Origin: Candidatus Poribacteria bacterium
Lineage (GTDB): Bacteria; Poribacteria; WGA-4E; WGA-3G
Length of the DNA stretch: 64,000 nt
Reading direction: 5' to 3'
Assembly (NCBI GenBank): GCA_028820845.1
Contig: JAPPII010000122.1
Coordinates: forward strand, 1-64,000
Position numbers and translations under genes: made by a program. The notes under the pieces were generated by a model. The model was given only the letters and a program-made list of their open reading frames with translations. It searched no databases and was not told where the DNA came from. Below are positions 28,119-39,782 of this stretch, piece by piece. Position 1 is the first letter of the stretch, and every line of letters begins with the position of its first letter.

Positions 28119-28505
28119 GAATTCCCCCTTTTTAGGATAATTCATTGGATCGGGCTCGCTTAGATAAGAGAGCCGTATCCCTCATTTTCCCGCCCTCTAT
28201 AGTCAGAGGATTTCAATAGGTTTAACTTTGTATTATTTTATATTGGCAATGTGTGTTGGAGATTATCCGTTTTGATGTTGATTAACAGTTCTGTTGCATC
28301 TGTTTCTACGTTCCTTCGTTAAAAGTATACCGTAAATCCAATTATTTATCCAGTTAAAATTACACGATATGAGCGCGAAACCCTTAAAATAGTCGTTTTT
28401 TGTAAATTCGGTTGAAATTTGAAAAAAAATCTGTTATACTTTTAAACATGTTTTGAAATCACATTTTTGTCCGAGATCAGATTTTAAATAGAGAGGCACT
28501 TGGTT
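28119..28505. other. AT-rich divergent intergenic region
   Basis: This gap separates the minus-strand CBM9-like gene from ftsH. Beyond the ftsH promoter at 28412-28440 I see no gene and no strong repeat. Confidence 0.5.
28412..28440 (+). promoter_or_regulatory. Sigma-70-like promoter of ftsH
   Basis: TTGAAA at 28412-28417 and TATACT at 28435-28440 are separated by 17 nt. The leader to the start at 28506 would be about 60 nt. Confidence 0.6.
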
Positions 28506-30422
28506 GTGAACAAAAATACAAGAAGCATGGTGATTTGGTGGCTGATTATTGCGGGGATCGTTGTCTTCGGCATCTATCAGTTATTTAACCGCAGAGACCC
28601 CGTCTATCAGTTGGCGACCTCTGATTTTCACCAGTATATAAAGCGCGGACCAGATCTATTTGATGGGTATCTGCTGTTAGATCAGGAATGGGTTGAGGGA
28701 CGTTTTTACGCAGAGAGTGTGAACCAAATACGCAGTGACATCCTGAGTGCCGTGCCGCTTGAAGAACAGGAAACCCATTTTCCCCCGAATTGGGAAGGCG
28801 AATTTAGAGCAAGCCGTGATGCACTTGATGAATATGACATTCAGGCAAAACTTGATGAATATGGTATTGACTATAACGTCAAGCCGCCATCTAAGTTTCC
28901 TCAAGGGTTGATTATCTTCGGGACGACGATCATACCGCTTCTCATCTTTTTAGGGCTGATGATTTTCTTGTCACGGCAAATGCAAGGGAGCGGAAATCGC
29001 GCCCTCTCTTTCGGTAAAAGTCGCGCAAGGCTCCATTCCGAGAATCAAAACAAGATTACCTTTGAAGATGTCGCAGGGGTTGATGAGGCAAAAGACGCAC
29101 TTGAAGAGGTTATTGAGTTCCTTAAAGCACCGAAAAAATTTGAACGTCTCGGCGGTAGAATTCCTAAAGGAGTCCTACTGATGGGACCCCCAGGCACGGG
29201 GAAGACTATGCTCGCGCAAGCCGTCGCAGGCGAAGCGGATGTCCCCTTCTATAGCATCAGCGGGTCCGATTTCGTTGAGATGTTCGTTGGTGTTGGTGCC
29301 TCTCGTGTTCGGGACCTCTTTGAAACGGGAAAGAAAAACGCGCCGTGTATTATTTTTATTGATGAACTCGATGCAGTCGGCAGACACCGAGGAGCAGGTA
29401 TCGGCGGCGGACACGATGAACGTGAACAGACTTTAAACCAACTCCTCGTTGAAATGCAGGGGTTCGACGCATCAGAAGGTGTGATTCTCATCGCCGCAAC
29501 GAACCGTCCCGACGTCTTAGATCCAGCACTCCTACGTCCCGGTAGATTTGATCGACAAATTGTCGTCGACCTTCCCGATGTTCGCGGAAGAGAGGCAATC
29601 CTCAAAGTCCATACAAAACAGCCTTATAAACTTGCCGAAGATGTCAATTTGGATCTTTTAGCGAAGGCGACACCTGGCTTCTCCGGGGCTGACCTTGAAA
29701 ATATGGCAAATGAAGCCGCACTCCTTGCAGCAAGACACGACAAAGAACAGATTGACATGCTCTGCTTTGACGAGGCGAAAGACCGAGTCCTGATGGGACC
29801 AGAACGCCGAAGCCTCGTGATTAGTGAGGAAGAGAGGCGCGTTACTGCCTATCACGAAGCCGGGCATGCGCTTATGTTACATTTCGTGCCAGAGAGCGAT
29901 CCGAATTATAAGTGTACGATTGTTCCCCGCGGTAGAGCACTCGGTGTCACAGCAAAACTTCCACTTGAAGAACGCCATAACATGAGCAGAAAACGACTCC
30001 TCGCTCACATTATTTTTGCACTCGGTGGTCGGGTCGCTGAAGAAATTATTTTTGGTGAGCAGACGACAGGTGCGCAAAATGACTTTGAGCAAGCGACGAG
30101 CCTCGCACGTCGGATGGTTACCCAGTGGGGCATGAGCCACATGGGACCCCTCACTTTCGGCAGACGCGACGAACAGGTCTTTCTTGGCAAGGAATTGGCT
30201 GTCCATCAGGATTATAGCGAAAAAACTGCTATTGAGATTGATCAGGCTGTCCACGATATCGTCATGGAGTGCTATAAAAAGGCACGTGATATTTTGGAAA
30301 CCAATTTGGATGGATTGAAGTTACTCGCAGATGCGTTATTAGAACGTGAAACGCTTGTTACTGAAGAGATTGATGAAATCCTCGGACCCCGACCTCAACT
30401 TCCCGCGAAACCGATTATATGA
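28506..30422 (+). CDS. ftsH: ATP-dependent zinc metalloprotease FtsH
   Basis: The product (638 aa) is a complete FtsH. It has two membrane helices (about 8-28 and 135-155), then an AAA+ domain with Walker A GPPGTGKT, Walker [12 protein letters not shown] and the SRH segment with LLRPGRFDR. The zinc protease site is HEAGH. It degrades misfolded and regulatory membrane proteins from the cytoplasmic face. The GTG at 28506 has GAGAGG at 28491-28496 with good spacing; a TTG at 28500 is too close to it. The stop overlaps the folP start (ATGA). Confidence 0.96.
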
Positions 30423-31243
30423 TTTGTCGTGGGAAAACACTCACTTTAGGTAGAAATACGCATGTGATGGGCATCTTGAACGTCACGCCGGACTCTTTTT
30501 CCGATGGCGGACGCTATCTTGATGTCCAACAAGCGGTCGCGCATGCCGAGACGATGATTGCTGAAGGTGCTACCCTCATCGATGTCGGTGGCGAATCTTC
30601 ACGTCCAGGGGCATCACCAGTATCGGTTGATGAAGAATTAGCACGGGTCGTTCCGGTCATTGATGCACTCGCTGATACTGTGGACGTTTTCATTTCTGTT
30701 GATACGTCCAAAGCAAAGGTGGCGCAGTGTGCACTTGAGGCAGGCGCACATATTGTTAATGACATCACTGCCCTGAGTGGCGATCCTGACATGGCGGTAG
30801 TCGTCGCTGAGATGGAAGCCGGTGTTGTTCTGATGCACATGAATGGGACACCGCGCACAATGCAGCAGGCACCCGAATATGAAGATGTCGTTAACGAGAT
30901 TCACGCATGGCTAAAAAAAAAGATTCAGAATGCTGAGGCACACGGTATCGCTGCCGAACGCATTATTATTGACCCAGGCATCGGTTTTGGTAAAACGACA
31001 GCGCATAACCTTCAGCTCCTGAAGCGTCTTTCGGAGTTTCAAGTGCTAAACAGACCGCTGCTTATCGGCACTTCGCGTAAATCGTTTATCGGCAATATTT
31101 TAGATGTTCCGATGACGGAGCGCGTTGAAGGCACAGCAGCGACGGTGTGTTGGGCAATCGCACACGGAGCAGACATTGTCCGTGTCCATGATGTAAAAGC
31201 AAATGTTCGTGCTGCACAAATGACGGATGCCCTCTATAGATAG
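30419..31243 (+). CDS. folP: Dihydropteroate synthase
   Basis: This 274-aa TIM-barrel enzyme condenses dihydropterin pyrophosphate with p-aminobenzoate in folate synthesis. The signatures MGILNVTPDSFSDGG, ATLIDVGGESSRPGA and DPGIGFGKT are intact. Its ATG overlaps the ftsH stop by 4 nt, a known ftsH-folP arrangement that implies translational coupling. The C-terminal VRVHDVKANV segment is normal. Confidence 0.96.
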   Translation: MICRGKTLTLGRNTHVMGILNVTPDSFSDGGRYLDVQQAVAHAETMIAEGATLIDVGGESSRPGASPVSVDEELARVVPVIDALADTVDVFISVDTSKAKVAQCALEAGAHIVNDITALSGDPDMAVVVAEMEAGVVLMHMNGTPRTMQQAPEYEDVVNEIHAWLKKKIQNAEAHGIAAERIIIDPGIGFGKTTAHNLQLLKRLSEFQVLNRPLLIGTSRKSFIGNILDVPMTERVEGTAATVCWAIAHGADIVRVHDVKANVRAAQMTDALYR

Positions 31244-31247
31244 ATCG

Positions 31248-31640
31248 ATGCATCAGCAAAAAATTCAGGGAATCGGTATTGATATTGTTGAAGTGGAACG
31301 GATTCGAGAGGCATCTCGTCGATGGGGGGCGCGCTTTGAACAGCGGGTTTATACGCAACAAGAACTCGCGTATTGTGGAGACGCGCCGAGCCGATATTGG
31401 CGACTCGCTGCCCGTTTTGCTGCAAAAGAAGCAGCCCTGAAAGCACTCGGCACAGGTCTGATTGCCGGTATGCGTTGGAGAGACGTAGAGATCAAGGCGA
31501 ATGCTGTCGGGAAACCTGAACTTATTTTGCACGGCGAAGTCCGACGGTATGCCGACGCACGGAATATCAATTTAATATTCGTTTCTATGTCCCATACAAA
31601 TGTGTATGCTGTCGCGCAGGTAACCCTCTGCTCCGCTTGA
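31248..31640 (+). CDS. acpS: Holo-[acyl-carrier-protein] synthase
   Basis: The product (130 aa) transfers 4'-phosphopantetheine to acyl carrier protein. The Mg-binding motif GIGIDIVEVERI and the second motif FAAKEAALKALG are both present, and the C-terminal SMSHTNVYAVA block is typical. The ATG at 31248 lies 4 nt after folP; an ATG at 31227 would overlap folP by 17 nt. Neither has a strong ribosome-binding site, so coupling to folP is likely. Confidence 0.92.
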   Translation: MHQQKIQGIGIDIVEVERIREASRRWGARFEQRVYTQQELAYCGDAPSRYWRLAARFAAKEAALKALGTGLIAGMRWRDVEIKANAVGKPELILHGEVRRYADARNINLIFVSMSHTNVYAVAQVTLCSA

Positions 31641-31707
31641 TTCGGTGTGCGTTCCTATACCCAACTCCCGTATTTTTAGAAAGTTAACGTTTTGGTGTGA
31701 GGTAAAA

Positions 31708-32805
31708 GTGAAATACATTCACAGTTCAGTTGTCCTTGTCTTCTATTTTCTCGTTTGTAGTAGTGTCGCTTTTGCTGAGAACATGACCGCCACAACGAAT
31801 GGGTTTCTCAAGCAGCTCCTCGGTGCCGAATATCACGGAATGGGAGGCAGCTTCGCGGGTGTAACCCGTGGAGCAGACGCACTCGGGAACAACCCCGCGG
31901 GTATCAGTACCCCAGCCGGAAACAGGTTTGTCGTTCATACAATCCGTTTTCCACGCACGATTACCCTTCTCGCTAAACCGAATGACGACGCTACTTATGA
32001 GGACTACAGTCGGTTTGAACAGCGCGCCTCTGGCATTGAAATGCTCAACTGGGTCTTTCCAATGGGTAAATTCGGCGCATTTGGGTTCGCATTTGCTTTT
32101 GGGCAAGAAGGTTCCTTTCGACGCGTTGACTATCTTGGAAAAGCGGTCAATAGTTTTCCCGAAAATAATCTCGCTATCGGTTTCGGCTATGGGGTAAATA
32201 TCCTTCGCAACACTGTTATCGGGTTTGACGCGAAATGGCTGCGTTCAAAAGTTGTTGATGTTGACGCGAAAGAGCATCTCGGACACGGTTATGCCTATAA
32301 CGTCGGTATTATTCAGCAATTTGACAGTGGAATCCACATCGGTATTGCGGCGCGGAACCTAAGCAATGGGCTCTCCTTTTCTAATGTTGAAATTCCTGAT
32401 AGAATAGAACGCACAATTGTTGTTGGTATTGCCTATCACCGCGAATTGTCAAACGTATCATTACGGGTCGGTTTAGACACACATCCACCCTTCCGCGATG
32501 GCATTCGGGCAAATGTCGGGGCAGAACTGTGGTATAAAAATTGGATTGGTGGTAGGATTGGGTATCTCAGGCACACTGAAAAACGCTACGCCTCGGTCTT
32601 TCTACTTCAAGACGCTGCCTTTGAAACGCAGGAACGACTCTGGAAGGCGGAAGGGATATGTTTCGGGCTGGGTGTCCGAGTCGGCGGCATAACACTAAAC
32701 GCCGCTTATGTCCCGCAATTCAAACCTACGGTAGAAGAATCAGAACGCCTTCATGTCGTCCAAGGTGAAGCTGTTTATACCTTTTCACTTGGACAAACTT
32801 TTTAG
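31708..32805 (+). CDS. PorV/PorQ-like outer-membrane beta-barrel protein
   Basis: The product (365 aa) has a signal peptide (about residues 1-22) and the N-terminal GMGGSFAGVTRGADALGNNP motif of the PorV/PorQ (UPF0164) family. Alternating strands through to a C-terminal FSLGQTF, ending in phenylalanine, suggest a barrel. In Bacteroidetes PorV carries type IX substrates to the sortase. I chose GTG 31708 with GAGG at 31699-31702; an upstream in-frame ATG at 31645 adds a non-signal-like leader. Two proteases with type IX-like C-termini lie in the window. Confidence 0.75.
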   Translation: MKYIHSSVVLVFYFLVCSSVAFAENMTATTNGFLKQLLGAEYHGMGGSFAGVTRGADALGNNPAGISTPAGNRFVVHTIRFPRTITLLAKPNDDATYEDYSRFEQRASGIEMLNWVFPMGKFGAFGFAFAFGQEGSFRRVDYLGKAVNSFPENNLAIGFGYGVNILRNTVIGFDAKWLRSKVVDVDAKEHLGHGYAYNVGIIQQFDSGIHIGIAARNLSNGLSFSNVEIPDRIERTIVVGIAYHRELSNVSLRVGLDTHPPFRDGIRANVGAELWYKNWIGGRIGYLRHTEKRYASVFLLQDAAFETQERLWKAEGICFGLGVRVGGITLNAAYVPQFKPTVEESERLHVVQGEAVYTFSLGQTF

Positions 32806-32858
32806 CAACGCAAAGACGCGATTCTGACTTATGTCTGACGAATTCGGAGGGATTCGCG

Positions 32859-33299
32859 ATGAATAATATTGAGATAAAATATACAATAACACATGAGTGG
32901 GCTGAGATCCTTGATTCAAAGGAGTGTAGCGTCGGGATCACCGAGCGCGCCCAGGAAATCTATAGCAACATCATTTTTATTGAATTGCCGTCTCTTGGTG
33001 AATTTGAGCAAGACGAGATTATGGGACACCTCGAAACCTCTGATGGCAGAAATTTCTATATCCACGCACCTGTCAGTGGTGAGGTTTATGAGGTCAACAC
33101 CGCTCTTGAGGATGATATTGAACTCCTCAACCGTTTCCCTGAAGGTGACGGTTGGATTTGTAAACTCCGTATTGAGAATCCAAGTGAGATAGAAGCACTC
33201 CTCACACTCCCTGAATATGAGGCGTATGAGGAGGAAGAACTCAATGAAGAGGAGTACCTACCAGAAACTGATTTTTACGAAAATATTGAGGATTATTAG
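32859..33299 (+). CDS. GcvH-like protein lacking the lipoyl lysine
   Basis: This 146-aa protein matches glycine-cleavage H protein along its first 105 residues: YTITHEWAEI, VGITERAQE, IFIELPSLGE, and APVSGEVYEVN. The lipoyl hairpin normally reads E-S-V-K-A. Here residues 59-64 are E-T-S-D-G-R, with no lysine between K21 and K102. It therefore cannot be lipoylated in the usual way. The last 35 residues are an extra, very acidic tail. GGAGG lies upstream of the ATG. No other glycine-cleavage gene is nearby. Confidence 0.82.
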   Translation: MNNIEIKYTITHEWAEILDSKECSVGITERAQEIYSNIIFIELPSLGEFEQDEIMGHLETSDGRNFYIHAPVSGEVYEVNTALEDDIELLNRFPEGDGWICKLRIENPSEIEALLTLPEYEAYEEEELNEEEYLPETDFYENIEDY

Positions 33300-33327: not shown

Positions 33328-34167
33328 ATGTCACAAACAGAAAAAATTCGGATTGGACACAGTCCCGATTCCGACGATGCATTTATGTTCTATGCTCTTG
33401 CCAAAGGGCTGATTTCAACTGGACCCTTTGAAATTGTTCATGTTATTGAAGATATTGAGACTTTGAATCAGCGGGCACTCGCTGCTGAACTCGAAGTCAC
33501 GGCAATCTCTGTTCACGCTTACGCCTATGTCGCCAAGGATTACGCACTGATGCCCTGCGGCGCAAGCATCGGAGACCGATATGGACCGCTTGTTGTTGCT
33601 AAGGCACCGATGGATACCCTTGAAGGGAAACGCATCGCTATTCCAGGCAAAATGACGACTGCTTACCTTACATTGAGCCTTTTCCAACCTGATTTTCAGG
33701 CAGAGACTCGTCCCTTTGATAAAATATTAGATGCCGTTCAACAGGACGAAGTGGATGCCGGACTCATTATTCATGAGGGACAATTGACTTATGCCCGTGA
33801 AGGGCTTCACAAGGTTATCGATTTAGGAGAGTGGTGGCACGAGGAAACAGGACTTCCCTTACCCCTCGGTGCGAACGTCATACGCCGCAACCTCGGCACT
33901 GAGAAAATTCGCCAAATAACAGCACTGCTCAAGCAGAGCATTCAATATTCACTTGAACATCGAGCGCGTGGGTTAGAATACGCTATGACCTATGCGCGTG
34001 ACATGGAGACCGCACTGGCTGATAAGTTCGTCGGGATGTATGTCAATGACTATACCCTTGATTATGGTGAGAAGGGGAGAGCTGGGGTCCGAGAATTGCT
34101 CCACCGCGGCAACGACGCAGGGATCATTCCGCATCGTGTGGAGGCAGATTTTGTCACACTTGAATAG
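33328..34167 (+). CDS. MqnA/MqnD-family protein (1,4-dihydroxy-6-naphthoate synthase-like)
   Basis: The product (279 aa) belongs to the MqnA/MqnD/periplasmic-binding-like family: IGHSPDSDDAFMFYALAKG at the N-terminus, then EVTAISVHAYAYV, YGPLVVAK and VDAGLIIHEGQLTY. MqnD acts in the futalosine route to menaquinone, and this is the closest assignment. No signal peptide is present, which argues against a transporter-binding protein. No other mqn gene is in the window. I use the ATG at 33328; the TTG at 33313 would place the GAAGGA site inside the gene. Confidence 0.75.
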   Translation: MSQTEKIRIGHSPDSDDAFMFYALAKGLISTGPFEIVHVIEDIETLNQRALAAELEVTAISVHAYAYVAKDYALMPCGASIGDRYGPLVVAKAPMDTLEGKRIAIPGKMTTAYLTLSLFQPDFQAETRPFDKILDAVQQDEVDAGLIIHEGQLTYAREGLHKVIDLGEWWHEETGLPLPLGANVIRRNLGTEKIRQITALLKQSIQYSLEHRARGLEYAMTYARDMETALADKFVGMYVNDYTLDYGEKGRAGVRELLHRGNDAGIIPHRVEADFVTLE

Positions 34168-35730: not shown

Positions 35731-37146
35731 ATGACTAACATGCCGAGGCTCGTCGTTGAAGTTTTTGAACATGTGAATTTTCAAGGACGCAAAGTAACGC
35801 TCATTGAATCGGTGCCAAATACAGGCGAAATCGGGGCACAAGACATTATCTCCTCGATCAAAATCTATAAGGGCCCTGGGTTCAACGCGTCTCCAAACTA
35901 TAAAGCTATCTTCCATGAGCATGAAGACTATAAGGGTCGCCGGTTGGTACTTCCACCCGGATTTTATCCGAATATCCACGATATCCCCTACAATTTCGGG
36001 GACGCAATCACGGCTATCAGTTTTAGTCCATCAGCGCATCCAACACCGCCTGAATATGGGGCTGTCCCAGTTATCATCGAAGTGTTTCGTAATGTAGACT
36101 ATAGCGGACAGCGGAGTGTTATCATGCGCGATGTCAGTTCAATGTTTGACATCGGTATGAATGATACGGTCTCCTCCATTCGTATCCAGCGCGGCCCGAG
36201 TTTTCCATTCAGCGGATGTCATGTTGTTTTTTATGAACACGTCAATTTTGAAGGACGTCGTTTGAATCTGAATTTAAGTTCACGAGAATTCCAGTTAGCA
36301 CTTCGCAATCTTAGGGATCTTCCACATTCGCAGTCATTTTCAGATATTATTTCCTCTATAAAGATTGTTCCATTAGGTGTATTCCGAGTCTTGGTTGTTG
36401 TTGGCGATAATAGATCGGGCGAGCCAGCAGTGTTAGAATCGCTTACCACAATCGAAGGATTAGAATTCCAATTCACTACTGTGCATATCAACGATAATCC
36501 TGACAATCATGGGGATGCCAATAATGCCGTCAAACTTTCAAGCATTGTGCTTTCAGATTATGATATCGTCTGGTTTACCTGGTTCGCAACCGGACACGAC
36601 GGTGAATATTTCCTTGAAGATGCTGATCAGGCGATTCAAGACTTTGTTCGTAAGGGTGGGATCGTCTGGGCTTCCGCAATGGATAATAATATCATACCGC
36701 CCGATGGAGTCCATACTACTGAACCGCAATGGCGTGGAGACTGGCTTCCTGTTGATCGACACCCGATACATGTTACGAACTCTAACGATAGCAATGTGCG
36801 GGTTACGGATGACGGGCAGAAAACCGGCATGTTTACTTGGCCCCATAAGGTTAATGTTGATACGCTCGTAACCGACGATCACTGGGTGACAAACGACAGA
36901 AGCTATCGGAAATTAGCAGTCAGAGAGGATAACGGGGACGCTGTGAGTCTACAGTTACAGTGGGGCGAAGGCTATTATGTCACTTTTGCTGTGGACACTC
37001 GCGATGCATATCGCACAACAATAGCGAAACCTCTTATTGAAAATACTTTGTGCTACTTAGCGAATCTCGCATGGCAGACTTCTCCGCGTCAACCGCTCAA
37101 GGGGCGTTACCGGACGCACCTCAGCAGCGATACAATCTTCCGGTGA
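35731..37146 (+). CDS. Two beta/gamma-crystallin domains fused to a GATase-like domain
   Basis: This 471-aa protein starts with two beta/gamma-crystallin domains (about residues 6-95 and 107-220), each with two Greek keys. Three of the four keys carry the calcium-site pattern [ND/x]-D-x-x-S-S (QDIISS, NDTVSS, SDIISS); the fourth reads GDAITA. Residues about 224-455 resemble a ThuA/GATase-like fold: FRVLVVVGDNRSG, LSDYDIVWFTWF, FVRKGGIVWASA. No signal peptide is seen. The function is unknown. Calcium binding is inferred from the motifs. Confidence 0.75.
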   Translation: MTNMPRLVVEVFEHVNFQGRKVTLIESVPNTGEIGAQDIISSIKIYKGPGFNASPNYKAIFHEHEDYKGRRLVLPPGFYPNIHDIPYNFGDAITAISFSPSAHPTPPEYGAVPVIIEVFRNVDYSGQRSVIMRDVSSMFDIGMNDTVSSIRIQRGPSFPFSGCHVVFYEHVNFEGRRLNLNLSSREFQLALRNLRDLPHSQSFSDIISSIKIVPLGVFRVLVVVGDNRSGEPAVLESLTTIEGLEFQFTTVHINDNPDNHGDANNAVKLSSIVLSDYDIVWFTWFATGHDGEYFLEDADQAIQDFVRKGGIVWASAMDNNIIPPDGVHTTEPQWRGDWLPVDRHPIHVTNSNDSNVRVTDDGQKTGMFTWPHKVNVDTLVTDDHWVTNDRSYRKLAVREDNGDAVSLQLQWGEGYYVTFAVDTRDAYRTTIAKPLIENTLCYLANLAWQTSPRQPLKGRYRTHLSSDTIFR

Positions 37147-37217: not shown

Positions 37218-39782
37218 ATGCGTTTCATTGCTGTTATTGTCTTCTTGATCGCCGTAGCCATTGCTGTTGGATGGTTTGCCTTCAAAAATCTCGACAGTTT
37301 TGGGCAGAGCGGAGTGATGCGTATACTCGGATTTACGCTACTCGTCCTGCTCGCTATCTTGGCGGCATTTGTTGCTATGGTCATCCGATACCGGATACCT
37401 AAAGCTGATGTCGCACTCGTACGGACGGGTGGTTCCAAAGAGAAAATCAGTATTACCGGCGGTCTCTGGGTTAACACTATCATCCATGAAATCAAGGAAA
37501 TTTCTCTTAATACCATGCGAATTGAGGCGATCCGTGAGGGACCAGAGGCGTTGATTACCTATGATTTCAACCGGGGTGATGTAGAAGTCGTTTTCTATCT
37601 TAAAGTTGAACCGAATCAAACCGATATTTTGCGCGCAGCTCAGGCACTTGGTGATAAATCTATGACCCCTGAAACTGTCCGTGAATTGATTGAACCTAAA
37701 CTTGAAGGTGCTTTACGGAGCGTCGCCGCCGAAAGCGAAATCCAAGATCTCCTCCAGAAACGTCAAGAGTTTGGGGATAAAGTTCAAGCAGCATGCGGCG
37801 AGGACTTGCAGATCCAAAACGGTTTGACGCTTGAGACTGTTTCGATTATCCGAGTAGATCAAACGCCTGTTGAAACGCTGGACGCTGAAAACCGGTTTGA
37901 TGCTGTCGGTATTCGTGAAATTACCGAAATTACAGCCGAGCAGGAACGAGAAAAAGAACGTATCGTTCAGGAAAAAGAGGTCGCTATCGTTCAAATTGAA
38001 GTTGATGCCCGTATCCAAAAACTTGAAGCAGAACAGGAACAGGCATGGGCTGAATCCGACCAACAAAAGAACATCGCTATCTATGCCGCTGAACGAGAAG
38101 CGGAAACTCTCAAATTCCAATTTGAGATGGAACAGGGTGTCCAAGAGCGCGAATACGAGATGAAGCAAGAAGTGGAGCGCGCCCGTATCACCCAAGAACA
38201 GATCGTCCAAGAACGCGAAATTGAGATGAATCGCGACATCCAAGTCGCTCAAGTCCAACAAGAGCAAGTCGTCCAAGAACGTGAAATTGAGAAAAATCTC
38301 ATCGTCGAAACACAACAGATTGAGCAGTCGAAAGTTGTACAACTTGCCGAAATCCAACAACATCTTACCGTCCAGATGCAGAAAATTGAACAGGAACAGA
38401 CGATTGCTGTTCGTGAGATAGAGAAGGAACTGGCGGTAGAGAAGGCGCGTATTGCCCAAGAAGAGGGTGTGTCTTTACGAGATATCGAGCGCGAATTAGC
38501 GGTGCAGACGGCGCGCTTCAGTCAAGAGCAACAAGTTCAACAGCGTGAGATTGAGAAGAATCTCGTCGTGGAAACCGCACAGATTGACCAGATGCGACAA
38601 GTTGAACTCGCTGAGATTGCGAAAGTGTTGGTGGTCGAAGTGACACGCATTGCTCAGGAACAACAGGTATCAATCCGGGACATTGAAAAGGAACTCATGG
38701 TAGAAAAGGCGCGTATTGCCCAAGAAGAGGGCGTGTCTTTACGCGATATCGAGCGCGACCTGCTGGTGCAGACGACCCGCTTCGGTCAAGAGCAACAGGT
38801 TCAGCAGCGTGAGATTGAGAAGAATCTCGTCGTGGAAACCGCACAGATTGATCAGATGCGACAAGTTGAACTCGCTGAGATTGCGAAAGTGTTGGCGGTC
38901 GAGGTGACACGTATCGCACAAGAACAACAAGTAGAAATTCGTGATGTTGAAAAGGAACTCATGGTAGAGAAGGCACGTATTGCCCAAGAAGAGGGTGTGT
39001 CTTTACGCGATATCGAGCGCGACCTGCTGGTGCAGACGACCCGCTTCGGTCAAGAGCAACAGGTTCAGCAGCGTGAGATTGAGAAGAATCTCGTCGTGGA
39101 AACCGCACAGATTGACCAGATGCGACAAGTTGAACTTGCCGAGATTGCGAAAACACTAACAGTCGAGCAGTCCCGAATCAATCAGGAATTACGTGTCGCT
39201 TTAAGCGATGAGGATCGGAAGATTGACGTTGCCAATAAGCAGCAGGTAACCGCACTTGCTGAGAAGGAGCAATTAGTTGCTGAAGCCGAACGTATGGGGG
39301 CGGAAGTGAATGTGACTGCCATGGAACAAGTCAAAGAGGCTGAATGGCAGCGTGAGGTTGCGATTATCGGTGCCGAGGCACAAGCACAGCCCATTGAACG
39401 TCTCGCCGATGCCGTACTTGCTGAAGCGAGAGCGAAAGCACAAGGCGAGATGGCTGAATATGAAGCCCGAAATGTTGCTGAACAACGCGTCCTTGTCCAA
39501 GAGGCTGTTATGGAACTCATTGACGAATTCCCAGATATCGTCGAACAAATGATGCGACCCGTTGAGAAAATTGATAGCATCAAAATTTTGGACATGGGAA
39601 ACAATGACGGCACAGGTGGCATTAATCGAAGCAATATGGGTAGACTCGCAAATGCATTACTCGATACAGGTGCTATCTCTCCGATGCTTAAAGAACTCTT
39701 TAACTTCGCCGATGTCGATGCGCAGCAGATTACTGATAAAATCGCTGAATATCTGGCGGACCTCGTTAATCGTCCCGATTGA
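37218..39782 (+). CDS. Flotillin/SPFH-like protein with long repetitive coiled coil
   Basis: This 854-aa protein has two N-terminal hydrophobic segments (about 2-20 and 32-55). An SPFH-like domain (about 56-230, with VALVRTGG and ISITGGLWV) follows, then some 470 residues of charged coiled coil. The C-terminal part (about 700-854) includes the EARAKAQGEMAEYEARN region typical of flotillins. The coiled coil contains an 88-residue repeat encoded by 264-bp tandem DNA units. Flotillins organise membrane domains. ATAGGAG just precedes the ATG. Confidence 0.85.
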   Translation: MRFIAVIVFLIAVAIAVGWFAFKNLDSFGQSGVMRILGFTLLVLLAILAAFVAMVIRYRIPKADVALVRTGGSKEKISITGGLWVNTIIHEIKEISLNTMRIEAIREGPEALITYDFNRGDVEVVFYLKVEPNQTDILRAAQALGDKSMTPETVRELIEPKLEGALRSVAAESEIQDLLQKRQEFGDKVQAACGEDLQIQNGLTLETVSIIRVDQTPVETLDAENRFDAVGIREITEITAEQEREKERIVQEKEVAIVQIEVDARIQKLEAEQEQAWAESDQQKNIAIYAAEREAETLKFQFEMEQGVQEREYEMKQEVERARITQEQIVQEREIEMNRDIQVAQVQQEQVVQEREIEKNLIVETQQIEQSKVVQLAEIQQHLTVQMQKIEQEQTIAVREIEKELAVEKARIAQEEGVSLRDIERELAVQTARFSQEQQVQQREIEKNLVVETAQIDQMRQVELAEIAKVLVVEVTRIAQEQQVSIRDIEKELMVEKARIAQEEGVSLRDIERDLLVQTTRFGQEQQVQQREIEKNLVVETAQIDQMRQVELAEIAKVLAVEVTRIAQEQQVEIRDVEKELMVEKARIAQEEGVSLRDIERDLLVQTTRFGQEQQVQQREIEKNLVVETAQIDQMRQVELAEIAKTLTVEQSRINQELRVALSDEDRKIDVANKQQVTALAEKEQLVAEAERMGAEVNVTAMEQVKEAEWQREVAIIGAEAQAQPIERLADAVLAEARAKAQGEMAEYEARNVAEQRVLVQEAVMELIDEFPDIVEQMMRPVEKIDSIKILDMGNNDGTGGINRSNMGRLANALLDTGAISPMLKELFNFADVDAQQITDKIAEYLADLVNRPD
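38421..39160 (+). repeat. 264-bp tandem repeat inside the flotillin-like gene
   Basis: Equivalent positions at 38427, 38691 and 38955 (each starting GAACT) are exactly 264 bp apart, giving about 2.8 copies. Copies two and three are almost identical at the DNA level and copy one is more diverged. The unit encodes 88 residues, so copy-number change keeps the frame. Confidence 0.9.

Follow-up and report, generated by a model that had tools for sequence, protein, structure and literature searches.

A lipoyl arm is what normally defines the H-protein GcvH. In the Escherichia coli protein this arm is locked or guided by residues Glu-12, His-13 and Glu-14 and, during its release, by Ser-67, Asp-68 and Tyr-70 (PMC7733448). 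Relatives of GcvH also occur outside glycine cleavage: in LbpA of the sHdr sulfur oxidation pathway, the lipoyl lysine is strictly conserved and two cysteines are conserved in most cases (PMC6067878), and GcvH-L, a paralogue encoded by the SirTM/macrodomain operons of Streptococcus and Staphylococcus, occurs in S. pyogenes in the absence of a glycine cleavage system, is lipoylated on Lys56 and belongs to a dedicated operon (PMC4518038). A chlamydial GcvH-related protein is represented by a model (TIGR03077) whose name, not_gcvH, says that it is not GcvH, and the eukaryotic Simiate/Abitram (FAM206A) has been described as H-protein-derived. A search of the open-licence literature found no earlier description of the lysine-less GcvH paralogue treated here.

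This paralogue, termed here gcvHL, is encoded within the window, i.e. the whole analysed stretch of 64,000 nucleotides of Candidatus Poribacteria bacterium (assembly GCA_028820845.1, contig JAPPII010000122.1). The features of this locus are as follows:

28500–30422, + strand: ftsH, part of a conserved block
30419–31243, + strand: folP (pterin-binding enzyme), part of the conserved block
31227–31640, + strand: acpS (holo-ACP synthase), part of the conserved block
31645–32805, + strand: PorV/PorQ-family gene (porV), a conserved upstream neighbour about 54 bp from gcvHL
32846–32850, + strand: GGAGG, a Shine-Dalgarno-like site 8 nt 5′ of the gcvHL ATG
32859–33299, + strand: gcvHL, an ORF with an ATG start encoding 146 aa (pI about 4.05)
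33033–33056, + strand: hairpin that carries the lipoyl lysine in normal GcvH; residues 59–66 of gcvHL (ETSDGRNF), with the lysine replaced by D62 (33042–33044), followed by the conserved G63
33213–33296, + strand: acidic C-terminal stretch, residues 119–146, ending in Tyr; helical to about residue 132, the rest predicted to be disordered
33328–34167, + strand: mqnD-like gene (VitK2_biosynth) downstream of gcvHL; the real start is probably the ATG at 33328, behind AAGGAA

The gcvHL product matches the Pfam family GCV_H (PF01597) with 86.9 bits (cut-off 22.2), and does not reach the equivalog level of the NCBIfam GcvH model TIGR00527 (91.8 bits, cut-off 115.85). It shares with GcvH, as defined by these two models, the fold, the core length and the HEW, G26, P71-x-x-GE, N80, N91 and GW motifs, but differs in the absence of the lipoyl lysine, in a hairpin longer by one residue (E59-T-S-D62-G-R-N-F versus canonical E-S-V-K-A-A-F) and in its acidic tail. 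The preliminary description of this DNA had reported E-T-S-D-G-R in place of E-S-V-K-A, a complete lack of lysines between residues 22 and 101, and well-kept fold motifs. All three observations hold: D62 occupies the lipoyl site, the only lysines of the protein are K7, K21 and K102, and the fold is recovered both by the GCV_H match and by the AF2 model (mean pLDDT 85.6), whose top PDB matches are H-proteins without exception (TM by target ≤0.93, rmsd mostly 1.2–1.6). In this model, strands 54–60 and 65–69 are connected by the hairpin turn, and a C-terminal helix extends to about residue 132, followed by an acidic segment (132–146) predicted to be disordered. The acidic character of the C-terminus, also noted earlier, is confirmed (14 D/E and zero K/R in residues 119–146), but not the 35 extra residues ascribed to it: the acidic stretch comprises about 28 aa, and the protein exceeds the canonical GcvH of its own genome by 18 aa (146 versus 128 aa). 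The gcvHL product thus belongs to the GCV_H fold family but lacks the function-defining features of GcvH.

Unlike LbpA, gcvHL lacks both the lysine and the conserved cysteines (score of 20 against 150 for NF045810). Unlike GcvH-L of the SirTM operons, it has no lysine, its neighbours are other than SirTM, macrodomain and LplA2 genes, and its match to the GcvH-L structure 5a35 is weak (26.9 bits). The chlamydial model TIGR03077 gives 64.3 bits, short of its cut-off of 144.05, and Simiate/Abitram, a eukaryotic protein, is a parallel only, likened to gcvHL by its description.

Normal glycine cleavage genes are present in the window genome, at sites separate from gcvHL. A search for a second, lysine-containing GcvH, as had been proposed, identified a protein of 128 aa with the motif ESVKAA, encoded behind gcvT (contig C9, 63715–64080; locus L032), and gcvP is located on contig C48. 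A further difference from GcvH is that gcvHL is linked to neither gcvT nor gcvP, and that it is kept in genomes lacking a glycine cleavage system, the P-protein or a confident GcvT (see below).

The distribution of gcvHL was examined in Poribacteria, which are sponge-dwelling bacteria, with a profile built on the lysine-less protein and run on 85 genomes of the phylum. The matches fell into two score classes (150–226 bits and 107–126 bits), the higher of which, comprising the lysine-less proteins, was found in about 78 of the 85 genomes, a count that includes G015, where gcvHL is a fragment at a contig end. A lysine at the lipoyl position is present in none of 60 distinct gcvHL orthologues, as against 22 of 22 canonical GcvHs; orthologues with the same loss were thus found, acidic tail included, so that a chance feature is ruled out, and a search among these 60 for a lysine-bearing close relative at the locus gave not a single case. 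The tail is present in all 60, ending with Tyr or Phe in most, whereas none of the 22 canonical proteins has such a tail. The hairpin is longer by one residue in nearly all orthologues, and Gly occupies position 63 in 59 of 60. No invariant Lys, Cys or Ser was found across the 60 sequences; Ser61, which the window genus has at the tip of the hairpin, is replaced elsewhere by A, E, M, V, N or still other residues. The sequences show the tip as a tight turn with one additional residue and a near-invariant Gly, in which no conserved residue would be available for another group. Among the E. coli arm residues, the His and the second Glu are retained in the family (His12 in 60/60, Glu13 in 59/60, as in canonical GcvH), while Glu-12 is replaced by Thr or Asn and Asp-68 usually by Tyr, Pro or Thr.

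In a tree made without the hairpin and tail columns, for which no root was inferred, the lysine-less proteins form one side of a branch with support of 100/98; the opposite side is made up of the canonical GcvHs of Poribacteria and the GcvHs of Thermotoga, E. coli, pea and mouse. Since the canonical poribacterial proteins group with these distant homologs, the topology indicates that the split between gcvHL and canonical GcvH is ancient and not a recent duplication. Parsimony favours loss of the lysine as the direction of change, because the residue is common to all other GcvHs; this loss is ancient and dates from the base of the phylum or earlier. The earlier wording that the protein "has lost" the lysine is therefore acceptable as to direction, but not as an event in the window genome; a recent local mutation is ruled out by the phylum-wide distribution and the tree. 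A search of genome contigs with a single gcvHL sequence, which reaches close relatives only, gave matches in Poribacteria alone. N-terminal fusions hinted at by long ORFs in loci L067 and L070 were rejected, as Pfam shows GCV_H alone and the extra part probably results from a start placed 5′ of the true one. Genome G052 encodes further GCV_H-like proteins with longer ends and without the ESVKA motif (L076, 5300–6031 and 1370–2215, both on the – strand), which are a GcvH-related group different from gcvHL; the first of these also gives a weak match to the NqrA N-terminal barrel-sandwich domain.

Comparisons within the genus give a median dN/dS of about 0.07 for gcvHL (hairpin 0.075, tail 0.083) and of 0.045 for the canonical GcvH of the same genus, all figures being rough, with synonymous changes near saturation. 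These ratios indicate that gcvHL is under strong purifying selection, hairpin and tail included, and exclude decay. The gene is nevertheless dispensable in genus g18, because it has been cleanly lost there from the same locus: in both genomes (G062, G063) it is missing between the UPF0029 and methyltransferase genes, with the block otherwise intact. In the block of G062, folP and acpS are doubled in tandem (L142, 9345–11937).

The gene order ftsH-folP-acpS-porV-(UPF0029)-gcvHL is kept in families f1–f5 with some gaps (acpS is not seen in some loci and UPF0029 is absent in f5), and parts of this block also occur in f7 and the phylum's other classes; in family f6, gcvHL is at another location (L063). 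UPF0029 often lies directly 5′ of gcvHL, separated from it by anything from a few bases up to a few tens (some 10 bp, for example, in L123 and in L053), and an RlmKL-like methyltransferase gene lies 3′ of it, on the opposite strand, in many loci. The window locus contains neither of these two genes, and gcvHL is flanked directly by porV and mqnD. The mqnD-like gene is next to the block in f1 and f2 loci, and was not seen adjacent to gcvHL in the remaining families read. The PorV/PorQ-family protein of the window (31645–32805, + strand) scores below its family cut-off (65.5 of 90 bits).

Analysis of the partner genes revealed four genomes (G050, G051, G054 and G055; completeness 91, 95, 95 and 76%) in which gcvHL encodes the sole GCV_H protein found. 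Neither GcvP nor canonical GcvH, 2-oxoacid dehydrogenase E2 or an LplA/LipB-type protein was found in them, and GcvT and LipA gave no match over the cut-off. The same searches recovered GcvP, GcvT, LipA, E2 and LplA/LipB in the window genome. As regards lipoate, they covered the canonical proteins LipA and LplA/LipB; a non-canonical route runs through LipS1 and LipS2, reportedly the enzymes of a novel, published lipoate assembly pathway. Two further genomes (G060, G061) keep gcvHL without GcvP or canonical GcvH, with LipA, LplA/LipB and E2 present. The independence of gcvHL from glycine cleavage and from the lipoate machinery covered by these searches is thus well supported, and since the gene is kept in relatives without a detected lipoate system, it must have some other job. 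Its retention where these partners were not found argues that the product is neither a lipoyl carrier, a conclusion that is well supported, nor a decoy for glycine cleavage.

A role as a decoy had been raised in the preliminary description. A lysine-less decoy or regulator would act as a pseudo-substrate that binds GcvP, GcvT, LipA or lipoate ligase and tunes the pathway, and this would agree with the kept H-protein fold and some of the arm-cavity residues (His12, Glu13), as well as with the presence of the P-protein and canonical GcvH in most gcvHL-bearing genomes. It is contradicted by at least four relatives that keep gcvHL with no detected glycine cleavage or lipoyl partners, by G060 and G061, and by the position of gcvHL in the window genome, beside neither gcvT nor gcvP; the decoy reading is largely refuted by the lipoate-less genomes and we consider it unlikely. 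Non-covalent binding of a free small molecule in the old lipoyl-arm cleft, for which the conserved cleft-side His12 and Glu13 might speak, is a better candidate, though still a doubtful one: the counterparts of the arm-holding Asp-68 and Glu-12 (E. coli numbering; PMC7733448) are replaced, H-E-W may be retained for folding alone, and the conserved acidic tail would be left unexplained. Attachment of a different covalent group to another residue, e.g. phosphopantetheine to Ser, is suggested by acpS in the conserved block and by Ser61 at the hairpin tip of the window genus. The variability of this residue and the lack of any invariant Ser, Cys or Lys make such a carrier very improbable, and no other modification site is apparent in the family. 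As for a decaying, functionless duplicate, the clean absence of gcvHL from its locus in g18 is outweighed by the low dN/dS, which rules out a pseudogene, and by retention throughout the phylum, so that its probability is close to negligible.

Best supported is a cofactor-free module acting through binding of other molecules: the arm and part of its cavity no longer exist, some genomes have also lost all the detected partners of the arm, and selection nevertheless maintains the fold and the tail. The non-catalytic role proposed earlier is strongly supported by the lack of the lysine in all 60 orthologues, the kept fold, purifying selection and the second, lysine-bearing GcvH; the protein may also act as a scaffold, as was proposed with it. 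From the exclusion of other roles and from the look of the tail, we infer an adaptor function and a protein partner, and favour this over the small-molecule binder: there is about an even chance that the ancient GcvH paralogue, its barrel-sandwich fold kept, is a rigid, non-catalytic adaptor or scaffold of the cytoplasm. In such an adaptor, one protein surface would be displayed by the H-protein fold, and a basic pocket on the partner would receive the flexible acidic tail with its usual Tyr or Phe end. The acidic-aromatic tail resembles the SSB C-terminal tip in look. Candidate partners encoded in or near the block are ftsH, folP, acpS, porV, UPF0029 and the RlmKL-like methyltransferase. Against an adaptor it may be argued that the housekeeping genes of the block may be mere neighbours without a common function, that the gene is dispensable in g18, and that one of the four lipoate-less genomes is only 76% complete. 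A more tentative proposal is that, in the phylum Poribacteria, the H-protein has become a cofactor-free adaptor that docks by a C-terminal acidic-aromatic tail and would serve as a lipoate-independent core housekeeping factor of this lineage.

A bacterial phylum has conserved the H-protein fold after loss of the attachment site, even in members without a detected lipoate system, which makes gcvHL a clear instance in which a former cofactor carrier serves as a plain protein module. This has consequences for annotation: with their GCV_H match, the lysine-less proteins encoded at this locus would be labelled GcvH and would wrongly point to glycine cleavage in genomes such as G050, G051, G054, G055, G060 and G061.

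Two further genes were noted downstream of mqnD in the window. The first (35731–37146, + strand) encodes a protein with two beta/gamma-crystallin stretches followed by an unassigned region, and a gene for this protein is located near gcvHL-mqnD across the genus. The second (37218–39782, + strand) encodes a flotillin/SPFH-type protein (Flot, Band_7) and contains a 264-bp tandem repeat (38424–39152; 2.8 copies, 92% matches) that encodes a charged repeat.
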